In this document: positions 1,113 through 63,622 of the stretch, piece by piece
Numbering within the stretch: position 1 is the stretch's first letter
Layout: each line of letters opens with the position of its first letter
Assembly: GCA_963921795.1 (NCBI GenBank)
Contig: OY997642.1
Location: 259,501-323,500, forward strand
Direction: 5' to 3'
DNA length: 64,000 nucleotides
Source of the DNA: Nannobrachium achirus
Taxonomy: Eukaryota; Chordata; Actinopteri; Myctophiformes; Myctophidae
The notes under the pieces: model-generated
What the model was told of the DNA's origin: nothing
The model's input: only the letters and a program-made list of their open reading frames with translations
The model's database searches: none
Position numbers and translations under genes: made by a program

Positions 1113-1289
1113 AAGGTTAATAATAGATTAATATATTCTTACCCATGTTCAGAGTGACAGTGATGATGTTAATAGATTAATTAAAGGTTAATAGATTAAT
1201 TAAAGGTTGATAGAATAATTAAAGGTTAATAGATTAATTAAAGGTTAATTGATTAATTAAAGGTTAATAATAGATTAATATATTCTTAC
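1113..1289. repeat. Duplicated exon 7 donor region plus TTAATAGATTAATTAAAGG repeats
   Basis: A block of about 58 bp occurs twice, at 1113-1170 and 1260-1317, 147 bp apart. The right copy is the real junction: the last 28 bp of dvl3 exon 7 plus its GTAAG donor and intron start. The left copy carries the same donor (1138-1142) and the same 28 exon bases with one mismatch. Between them are short AT-rich repeats of TTAATAGATTAATTAAAGG type. On the transcript the copy is a decoy donor inside the intron. Confidence 0.85.
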
Positions 1290-1359
1290 CCATGTTCAGA
1301 GTAACAGTGATGATGTTCAGAGACATGGTGGAGTCTGTGATGCTGCTGAACGATGATGA
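1290..1359 (-). CDS. dvl3: dvl3 exon 7 (start of PDZ domain)
   Basis: This 70-bp exon encodes 23 residues plus the first base of the next codon. It includes SSSFSSITDST and LNIITVTLNM, the conserved stretch where the dishevelled PDZ domain begins; the split codon G|.. fits the Glu that follows LNM in the family. The acceptor TTGCAG follows a long UG-repeat tract; the donor is GG|GTAAG. It joins exon 6 in phase 0. The SSSF..I and NIITV residues fit DVL3 better than DVL1 or DVL2 (family knowledge). The rest of PDZ, DEP and the C-terminus must lie left of position 1. Confidence 0.95.
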
Positions 1360-1368
1360 CTGCAACAC

Positions 1369-1468
1369 ACGCACGCACGCACGCACGCGCACACACACAC
1401 ACACACACACACACACACACACACACACACACACACACACACACACACACACACACACACACACACAC
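1369..1468. repeat. (CA)n microsatellite at exon 7 acceptor
   Basis: A CGCA run followed by about 40 CA dinucleotides. On the dvl3 transcript (minus strand) it reads as a UG repeat lying directly upstream of the exon 7 acceptor, in place of a normal polypyrimidine tract. Confidence 0.97.
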
Positions 1469-1534
1469 AATAAAAACTAAGCATTTCAGCAGATGCTTTT
1501 TCAGTGTGAGATCAGAATAAGCAGAGTTTGATCT

Positions 1535-2676
1535 CAGTAAGACTAGTGATATTGATCCATTATATTGATCAGTAAGACTAGTGATATTGATCCATTCTAT
1601 TGATCAGTAAGACTAGTGATATTGATCCATTATATTGATCAGTAAGACAAGTGATATTGATCCATTATATTGACCAGTAAGACTAGTGATATTGATCCAT
1701 TATACTGATCAGTAAGACTAGTGATATTGATCCATTATATTGATCAGTAAGACTAGTGATATTGATCCATTATACTGATCAGTAAGACTAGTGATATTGA
1801 TCCATTATATTGATCAGTAAGACTAGTGATATTGATCCATTCTATTGATCAGTAAGACTAGTGATATTGATCCATTATATTGATCAGTAAGACTAGTGAT
1901 ATTGATCCATTCTACTGATCAGTAAAACTAGTGATATTGATCCATTATATTGGTCAGTAAGACTAGTGATATTGATCCATTCTACTGATCAGTAAAACTA
2001 GTGATATTGATCCATTCTACTGATCAGTAAGACTAGTGATATTGATACATTATATTGACCAGTAAGACTAGTGATATTGATCCATTCTACTGATCAGTAA
2101 GACTAGTGATATTGATCCATTATATTGATCAGTAAGACTAGTGATATTGATCCATTATACTGATCAGTAAGACTAGTGATATTGATCCATTATATTGATC
2201 AGTAAGACTAGTGATATTGATCCATTCTATTGATCAGTAAGACTAGTGATATTGATCCATTATATTGATCAGTAAGACTAGTGATATTGATCCATTCTAC
2301 TGATCAGTAAAACTAGTGATATTGATCCATTATATTGGTCAGTAAGACTAGTGATATTGATCCATTCTACTGATCAGTAAAACTAGTGATATTGATCCAT
2401 TCTACTGATCAGTAAGACTAGTGATATTGATACATTATATTGACCAGTAAGACTAGTGATATTGATCCATTCTACTGATCAGTAAGACTAGTGATATTGA
2501 TCCATTATATTGACCAGTAAGACTAGTGATATTGATCCATTATATTGATCAGTAAGACTAGTGATATTGATACATTATATTGACCAGTAAGACTAGTGAT
2601 ATTGATCCATTATACTGATCAGTAAGACTAATGACATTGATCCATTATATTGGTCAGTAAGATTAGTGATATTGGG
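1535..2676. repeat. 35-bp minisatellite with 385-bp higher-order repeat
   Basis: About 32 copies of a 35-bp unit (AGTAAGACTAGTGATATTGA then TCCAT and a variable 10-base end). The variants are ordered: the 11-unit series starting at 1746 is repeated unit for unit starting at 2131, giving a 385-bp higher-order repeat. It lies in dvl3 intron 6. The edges decay at 2621-2676. Confidence 0.95.
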
Positions 2677-2876
2677 TAAATTCACTATAATCATTTTTGT
2701 TGTCTTAGGAATGCGACTAAAAACGAAATATTATTATTGAACTCAAATCTTCATTGCATGAGTAATCAATGGGGGGGGGGGGGGGTGAACTAATCCTTCC
2801 ATTTCATTCTCATTCTGCTACGGTTGCTGCATGAATGCACCTCAGAGGAGGGTTTAATATACTACATGTAAGTCCT
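2677..2876. other. dvl3 intron 6 sequence with poly-G tract
   Basis: Non-repetitive intron sequence except for a run of about 17 G at 2770-2786. No gene or element end recognised. Confidence 0.5.
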
Positions 2877-2877
2877 T

Positions 2878-61921: not shown

Positions 61922-62728
61922 GCCTGTATTGCAGTTGTTCAACAGTGAAAAATATTTCCTTTATCCACTCTGTAATTCAGATCAATTGTTCATTTCTACA
62001 ATTTTACTACAGTTTAAAGCAGACCAGAAACACCTTATCCTTGGTTAGTCATTGATGATGTGTCCAAGCAGCATCATTCAGGTGTTTTCAATAACTATGA
62101 TTACCGTAGCTTTATCAGCAGTGATCCCTCACAGCTGAAGCACAGTTGCTTGACTAATTATGACAAGAATTAATCTATGGATATACTGACAGAAAAAGAA
62201 ACAGGTAATTTCCTACTTTCAGACTAATTAATAAATCATGTATGCAGATTATACTAATGACAAAAGGTTGCATGATTTACTTACATCAGGATAGGAATTT
62301 CTGGACATGTAAACATACTCAATTAGTCAATAAGAGTCTCAGATTATCTCTCCAAAGTCAGCTAATGTGAAAAATGAAGCGAATTCCTGATTTTCAACTA
62401 GTTTTTGCATACTTTAAGCTGATTATGCTAATTATTAAAGGTTGTATGACTTCACAATGGTAACATATGAATTTATGGACCTCACAAACATGGACTTAGA
62501 CTCTTAGATCACCTTTATAAGTTACCTAGAAGCAAAGTTATTGCCATTTCCCGTTTTTGGCAATTAATTGGCTAATTATGCTAATTACACATGCTAAACC
62601 CAAAAAGAAAAATTGAAGACATGTTTTTTTGGCATTGTGAGAACCCCAAGAATGAAGATATACATGTCTTCAACAATTATCATTCCAAAATTACAACCAG
62701 CAGAATCACTTCATTGGCTCCCCCACTA

Positions 62729-63000
62729 TATGGGCGTAAAAGGGATTTGGTTCCCCTGGCATCACAGGGATCGCCATATATGGGCATAAAATGGATTTGG
62801 TTACCCTGGCAACACAGGGATCTCCATATCTCCATATATGGGCATAAAAGGGATTTGGTTCCCCTGGCATCACAGGGATCTCCATATATGGGCATAAAAG
62901 GGATTTGGTTCCCCTGACATTACAGTGATGTCAGTGGCTGGTTCTACAGAGGGGATCTCCATTTATGGGCATAAAAGGGAACGTATGTATGATGATGTCA
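62729..63000. repeat. CCATATATGGGCATAAAA repeats right of the transposon
   Basis: Three to four units of about 54-60 bp: GGGATCTCCATATATGGGCA then TAAAAGGGATTTGGTTCCCC. These are the empty-site versions of the motif split by the transposon. Confidence 0.88.
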
Positions 63001-63189
63001 GATATCATAGACGTCATAGGACTTTCACATAACGAATAACTGAGTAAGCATGTAAACCCGTAAAATCTATATTTGGGCATGGCTGATTTATGACCTCATC
63101 ATGATGACACGAGCAAACACAGCTGAATTGTATAAATGATCAGTGCAGAAACCAACAGAAGTATTTGACCAAGACTCTTCGATTTAAAC

Positions 63190-63298
63190 ATCAACAAAGG
63201 TGTGACGTTTGACGTGTGACCGACCGACCGACCGACCGACGGACGGACGGACGGCCGGTGGAGGTTTTGATACTAAACTGCTCCCTAACGGTCGCAAT
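63190..63298. repeat. (GACC)n(GGAC)n module, distal copy
   Basis: Same module as at 56530-57505: AAAGGTGTGACGTTTGACGT, GACC run, GGAC run, GGAGGTTTTGATACTAAACT and CGGTCGCAAT. About 6 kb from its relatives, on the far side of the transposon. Confidence 0.88.
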
Positions 63299-63320
63299 AA
63301 TATAATATAATATAATATAA

Positions 63321-63484
63321 TATACAGTAACTTACTGTAATGGTAGGGTAGTCAGTAGCAGGTCTAACAGAACCCAGACAGGTTTATAATATAATATAAT
63401 ATAATATAATATAATATAATATACAGTAACTTACTGTAATGGTAGGGTAGTCTACTGTATATATTATAATATACAGTAACTTAC
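63321..63484. repeat. Copies of copb2 exon end plus GTAAGT donor
   Basis: Two decoys precede the real junction at 63485/63484: one with about 48 exon bases (63336-63383) and one with about 18 (63435-63452), each with ACTTAC (GTAAGT on the transcript). TATAA runs separate them. A further displaced copy is at 53379-53443. Confidence 0.92.
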
Positions 63485-63622
63485 TGTAATGTTAGGGTAG
63501 TCAGTAGCAGGCCTAACAGAACCCAGACAGGTCTCTCTAAGGAAACACTCAGCAGTGAAAGCCTCCTTCAGTCCAGGGAAAAGGTTCTCGTACTCCGTGG
63601 GGTCGGCCAGGGATTCAGCAGC
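63485..63622 (-). CDS. copb2: copb2 exon, fourth from last (alpha-solenoid end)
   Basis: This 138-bp exon (46 codons, phase 0 to 0). It reads AAESLADPTEYENLFPGLKE then AFTAECFLRE and ends TDYPNIT. ESLADPTEYENLFPGLKEAF is the near-invariant end of the COPB2 solenoid, which fixes the gene identity. The second half differs from the mammalian sequence. The donor is ACA|GTAAGT; the acceptor is TCTTGCAG. The N-terminal WD40 part of the gene lies beyond the right edge. Confidence 0.96.

Follow-up and report, generated by a model that had tools for sequence, protein, structure and literature searches.

In a 64,000-nucleotide stretch of the genome of the fish Nannobrachium achirus (C5:259501-323500, referred to below as the window), sequence spanning about half of the exon-intron junctions of two genes, copb2 and dvl3, was found to be copied into the adjoining introns, with the working junction left unharmed. 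The copies lie on the same strand as their source, are often amplified, take exon sequence only from less than 90 bp of the near junction and are set in a minisatellite-dense stretch of C5. The junction-copy pattern is real and strong, and it is present in one region and absent from four control genes. The copies are probably mirage-type minisatellites, that is, short tandem duplications with units that happen to cover an exon-intron boundary, born in a region of intense minisatellite formation where boundary-spanning duplications would be tolerated and exonic ones purged.

For exon mapping, tblastn searches with human protein sequences were combined with GT-AG and reading-frame joining, and the gene models derive from DNA alone. 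Both genes lie on the minus strand of the window, and the modelled exons of each join into proteins resembling human COPB2 and DVL3. C5 is 76.1 Mb long, in a genome of 1.66 Gb and 564 contigs; adding 100 kb of flank on each side (264 kb in total) allowed 20 introns of copb2 and 14 of dvl3 to be modelled, and much of ap2m1, which adjoins dvl3, was also recovered. Copies were sought in two ways. The strict test used a 24-mer (12 exon and 12 intron bases) searched against the adjacent intron with up to 4 mismatches, whereas the blastn test required at least 6 bases on each side of the junction and E <1e-3. The first coding exon of copb2 begins at an acceptor, the model having no ATG exon; a copy of this acceptor, 177 bp upstream and with 5 mismatches, was kept out of every count.

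Within the window, same-strand spanning copies were found in the adjacent intron at 10 of 20 junctions (dvl3 7/13, copb2 3/7), as follows.

16526..16595, minus strand: dvl3 exon 2, placed by tblastn and GT-AG joining; its donor, 16526/16525, is the source of 5 downstream copies
16236..16486, minus strand: dvl3 exon 2 donor copied five times, each copy with about 12 bp of exon, in an array of 51-bp period
11965..11995, minus strand: copy of the dvl3 exon 3 donor, 19 exon and 12 intron bp, 28/31 identical, 63 bp off
7140..7168, minus strand: copy of the dvl3 exon 4 donor, 17 exon and 12 intron bp, 25/29 identical, 101 bp off
7069..7111, minus strand: 45-bp tandem duplicate at the dvl3 exon 5 acceptor, 29 intron and 14 exon bp, 42/43 identical
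6550..6797, minus strand: dvl3 exon 5 donor copied three times at intervals of 100 bp, with a fourth copy at 5257-5300
3076..3399, minus strand: minisatellite of the dvl3 exon 6 acceptor, eight copies listed, about 6 bp of exon clearly common
1097..1176, minus strand: copy of the dvl3 exon 7 donor, 34 exon and 46 intron bp, 75/80 identical, 147 bp off
63409..63452, minus strand: first copy of the copb2 donor at 63485, 18 exon and 26 intron bp, 42/44 identical
63310..63383, minus strand: second copy of the same donor, 48 exon and 26 intron bp, 71/74 identical
53399-53444, minus strand: third copy of the same donor, 10 kb off
52159..52897, minus strand: six copies of the copb2 donor at 52985, within arrays of 116- and 271-bp period, GT kept in 5/6
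49782..49837, minus strand: copy of the copb2 last-exon acceptor, 44 exon and 12 intron bp, 50/56 identical, 126 bp off

The original prediction, made from the letters of the window, had named the donors of dvl3 exons 2, 3, 4, 5 and 7 and the acceptors of exons 5 and 6, and all seven could be located by coordinates. Of its four copb2 cases, two donors and the last-exon acceptor were recovered; the donor of the penultimate exon (51618/51617) was not, with no copy at up to 6 mismatches in 24 and none by blastn. A 32-bp unit does form three separate arrays (45203-45929, 48739-48931 and 51551-51617), the last of which starts directly at this donor, and the dvl3 exon 7 donor is separated from its copy by an intronic 19-bp minisatellite. 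The claim that only dvl3 exon 1 lacks copies did not hold: besides that exon, dvl3 had none at the donor of exon 6 or at the exon 2, 3, 4 and 7 acceptors (five further junctions), and copb2 had none at the acceptors of the three exons preceding the last.

Across the whole genes, the strict test found copies of 31 of 68 junctions (copb2 16/40, dvl3 15/28), comprising 17 donors and 14 acceptors, so that 5' and 3' boundaries are both affected. By blastn the figure was 38/68, with 1-19 matches apiece (19 for the copb2 acceptor at C5:338729); an earlier statement that nearly every readable junction is copied was thus too strong. In the blastn set the nearest copy lay 20-206 bp away (1796 bp in one case) and was 63-100% identical to its source. 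Exon parts ran from 6 to 93 bp. Arrays detected by Tandem Repeats Finder (TRF) span 16 junctions, with periods of 45-154 in 13 of the 16 and of 207, 284 and 473 in the other three; some copies stand isolated, outside arrays. The pattern extends beyond the two genes named at first. A third, ap2m1, showed copies at 2/10 junctions by the strict test and, by eye or tblastn, at three further junctions beside masked stretches.

Chance and base composition were ruled out as the source of the copies by four controls. No antisense matches and no matches in other introns of the same gene were seen for 108 junctions of four genes, cross-gene pairs gave 0/1120 matches, and dinucleotide-shuffled introns gave a single match in 20 rounds of 68. 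The predicted same-strand orientation held for every confirmed copy, and the excess over chance that had been claimed was borne out. Tandem repeats are prone to mis-assembly, and an assembly artefact was considered for this reason. Most copies have, however, diverged from their source, unit lengths vary from junction to junction, the contig extends for 76 Mb, and four other genes of the same assembly showed no copies at all; an artefact is therefore extremely improbable.

Those four genes were examined by the strict test inside other chromosomes: vcp on C12 (0/14), vcp on C3 (0/26), and beta-catenin genes on C10 (0/20) and C2 (0/20). The closest match among the 80 control junctions was one donor with 5 mismatches. 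The comparison of 31/68 with 0/80 gives a Fisher P of 3e-13, though junctions of one gene are not independent, and the intron lengths are unmatched (85-2619 bp in the control genes vs 144-10422 bp in copb2 and dvl3). One of the 14 modelled introns of the C3 vcp gene was dropped for a poor junction, and two exon pairs of vcp on C12, one of ctnnb2 and two masked gaps in ap2m1 went uncounted, having no joined junction. Given these controls, the pattern is regional, or at least not general.

A mid-exon control had been set beforehand as the comparison on which the prediction would stand or fall. Mid-exon 24-mers were copied in 3/32 internal exons (2/19 among exons of at least 120 bp) vs 31/68 junctions (Fisher P 3e-4), and exon 24-mers at least 90 bp from the near junction had a copy in that intron in 0 of 2317 tests. 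The far lower frequency in mid-exons speaks for the prediction. Together these two results indicate that the copied exon sequence derives from the exon edge.

This contrast with exons is mostly what selection would produce. In a region with a high rate of tandem duplication, perhaps by virtue of lying on a distal chromosome arm, a duplication over a donor would leave the first donor in its old exon context, and one over an acceptor would leave the last acceptor so. With a working junction in the old context, the protein would therefore be unchanged and the event nearly neutral. Duplications within exons would be purged, save for in-frame ones in tolerant segments or those over a stop codon, and the arrays would subsequently grow and decay like ordinary minisatellites, lengthening the introns. 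Of the two processes first proposed, tolerated intron growth with the real site intact fits best; tandem duplication across splice junctions is supported as well, while its nucleation there would be at most a possibility, the exon contrast being mostly attributable to selection.

Junction copies accompany a high rate of duplication within introns. Counting each array once, the share of distinct intronic positions duplicated nearby was 10.9% in copb2 and 11.1% in dvl3 (rates of 0.109 and 0.111) vs 1.3% and 0.16% (0.013 and 0.0016) in the two vcp genes, where no junction copy was found; intergenic parts of the 264 kb were 3.6-5.5% duplicated. For chromosome position, C5 was sampled by fourteen 2-kb pieces. 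Tandem duplications were present at 0.6, 1, 2, 4, 75 and 76.1 Mb and absent at 10, 25 and 60 Mb. No telomere array was found in the outermost 2 kb on either side of C5, so these positions give only apparent distances to the chromosome ends. The samples, all from one chromosome, would fit a distal-arm effect of the type seen for human variable-number tandem repeats (VNTRs), though the link is weak, and several results speak against it. Density is patchy, with 20-kb blocks of the 264 kb ranging from 0.003 to 0.30; the samples at 1 bp, 60 kb and 75.8 Mb had no tandem duplications; 38 Mb showed slight duplication (0.018), and the sample at 72 Mb was a solid array. On C7, a G-alpha gene lying 5.6 Mb from the chromosome end likewise gave no repeated exon matches, in what is a weak test. 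Searches for beta-catenin/plakoglobin, ATP1A and G-alpha found no series of adjacent matches to one exon, among long fragments only and with part of the candidates scored; on C4, two stretches were each matched at two places separated by 52 kb, and on C11 a stretch was matched at places separated by 21 kb.

Duplication was then compared between exon edges and deeper intron. Over the outermost 12 bp of the exon and the adjoining 60 bp of intron, the pooled rate was 0.41-0.54 on the donor side and 0.36-0.45 on the acceptor side, vs 0.05-0.19 beyond 120 bp from the junction, and the edge excess was also seen at the purely intronic positions +25 to +60 and among copies with at most 1 mismatch. After 4 of the 68 junctions had been dropped for having too few deep positions, 29/64 junctions were duplicated at up to 4 mismatches vs 8.1 expected from deep positions of the same introns (P 4e-13); with ap2m1 included, the values were 31/74 vs 9.2. 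Junction-spanning TRF arrays numbered 16 vs 4.2 expected from intron-internal arrays (P 8e-6), chiefly because of periods of 90-160 bp (8 vs 1.3). If duplication were uniform and tolerated, junctions and deep intron should be covered equally, and these figures depart from that; they weigh against tolerance as the whole account.

They would instead be expected if exon edges here were hot spots for tandem duplication, with breaks or template switches favoured about 100 bp or less from the splice junction (possible causes being R-loops tied to splicing, nucleosome borders and the exon GC step) and giving units of about 90-160 bp. The intergenic rate of just 0.036-0.055 also favours such hot spots. 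When deep values are averaged per intron, however, they rise to 0.10-0.28, shrinking the contrast, and the deep intron may be younger, inserted sequence. In addition, old junction copies stay recognisable for longer, because the working copy holds its exon and splice-site bases fixed. We estimate the resulting gain in ascertainment at up to about 1.6-fold, which removes most of the excess among copies with at most 1 mismatch (15 junctions vs 7.6 expected, P 0.004). It explains the exon-edge excess, 2- to 4-fold over deep intron, only in part, and the excess at the unconstrained positions +25 to +60 is not accounted for by non-drifting bases. GC content was rejected as a driver (intron GC 0.38-0.42 within 120 bp of junctions, 0.38-0.40 deeper). 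Transposon-derived deep intron was likewise rejected as a cause, repeat masking having moved the expectation only from 8.1 to 8.3 with a mask that is incomplete, covering repeats seen twice in the data. On balance, hot spots as the main cause are rather unlikely, and a modest true hot zone at exon edges is possible alongside tolerated, mirage-type duplication.

For conservation of the splice signals, the GT or AG dinucleotide was left unscored when finding copies in copb2, dvl3 and ap2m1. GT was kept in 52/53 donor copies and AG in 82/83 acceptor copies, drawn from 17 and 19 junctions, copies of one array not being independent. Weighted by junction, GT/AG identity was 0.995 for donors and 0.974 for acceptors, above the other positions (exon side 0.93 and 0.87; other intron bases 0.82 and 0.79). 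This is suggestive, no more, of the copies being retained by selection as spare splice sites that aid or tune splicing. The dependence within arrays and the fixation of GT/AG in the working copy, whereby half of the drift is missing, count against such an interpretation, as do the roughly half of junctions that have no copies; use of a copy would, moreover, mostly add sequence to the mRNA. Selection on the copies is accordingly judged very unlikely.

Among further sequence features of these junctions, (AC)n soon after donors is paired with (GT)n before acceptors on the sense strand, at 2879-2957 and 1365-1469 of the window (dvl3 intron 6) and in copb2 introns 6 and 8, this arrangement alone having been counted. 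Paired AC and GT runs are known to assist splicing in fish introns. Junction copies were seen at 0/6 acceptors whose last 80 bp hold at least 10 bp of GT run, vs 14/28 of the others (Fisher 0.03).

Two repeats in copb2 bear on which kind of boundary matters.

49545..49617, minus strand: 21-bp tandem repeat across the copb2 stop codon, at the boundary of coding sequence and untranslated region
51706..51833, minus strand: 18-bp tandem repeat within a coding exon of copb2, in frame (SVMSST/GVMSST)

Both agree with the proposed filtering of duplications by selection. The stop-codon repeat is an event of the same kind as the junction copies, at a different boundary, and the decisive boundary may be that between constrained and free sequence rather than splicing alone. 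Counting against this, neither dvl3 nor ap2m1 showed such a repeat at its start or stop codon at up to 4 mismatches. The gene models, considered without comparison to other fish, show no intron built from a copy and no new intron position.

It had been stated that no named phenomenon fits, but mirages do. These were reportedly described in amphioxus Adh3 by Canestro et al. in 2002. In two later papers, mirages are tandem repeats across exon-intron boundaries in amphioxus Adh3, globin (BflGb6/BflGb9), TnC and PGBD5; they occur at 5' and 3' boundaries with units of 10-160 bp in several copies, many keeping AG/GT, and mature transcripts are said to be normal and splicing undisturbed (PMC3087553, PMC3902484). 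Copies in the BflGb6 mirage are given there as 81-100% identical (PMC3087553). The units found here likewise span the boundary, occur at both boundary types and fall mostly within 10-160 bp. Unlike the amphioxus cases, they occur in a vertebrate-type genome and a minisatellite-rich region, where two neighbouring genes have about half of their junctions affected, and are known from sequence alone. On boundary-spanning, presence at both ends and unit length, they would be classed as a dense vertebrate case of mirages. No mirages at this density or in a vertebrate were found in the literature searched, including the accessible parts of a sea bream paper on intron duplication (PMC3045353), with most subscription papers outside the search. 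The new parts are hence the density, the vertebrate-type host and the exon-edge excess, the phenomenon itself being already named.

Three other systems share some of these features. Human VNTRs with GC >60% and units >15 bp show a 21-fold enrichment in the outer 5 Mb of chromosomes (PMC7608644); they resemble the present arrays in being long-unit tandem repeats with a possible link to chromosome ends, but the window has a GC content of 0.27-0.47 (4-kb steps), and here splice junctions are central. Repair-mediated duplications (PMC2671141) are also short and local, some of them including splice sites; that survey omitted pairs within 50 bp and had four partial exon/intron donors among 824, whereas tandem arrays are common here. 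Intron gain through tandem duplication of proto-splice sites (PMC2891723) similarly duplicates exon sequence at splice signals, but no new intron was seen arising from a copy here.

Several further features were noted around these loci. Much of dvl3 intron 1 is taken up by a 5.9-kb array (window 19797-25690) in which an AT-rich unit of 38 bp is present in 157 copies, and telomere-like AGGGTT units occur in the copb2 intron arrays (window 52160-53042 and 51510-51541). Inside copb2 intron 18, a 613-amino acid open reading frame lies at 59049-60887 on the minus strand, with no Pfam match, and a 621-amino acid open frame at C5 ~406 kb presumably resembles the NACHT part of an NLR gene. Beside the two intron-bearing vcp genes, four intronless, full-length, stop-free vcp coding copies were found (C10:34773607-34776003, C9:56939629-57012268), which are retrogenes by appearance.

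Taken as mirage-type duplication, the finding suggests a route by which introns may grow without loss of the gene, through minisatellites born over their own splice sites. For annotation it is a trap: when proteins are aligned to the genome there, an exon end finds as many as a dozen near-identical copies of itself. The junction copies, which differ in age and number in the dozens across three neighbouring genes of vertebrate type, offer material for estimating the rate of the process, GT/AG survival and possible consequences for splicing. On a bolder and rather unlikely reading, exon edges in certain chromosome regions of this fish would be initiation points of ~100-150-bp tandem duplications, splicing or chromatin thereby driving minisatellite birth and intron growth.

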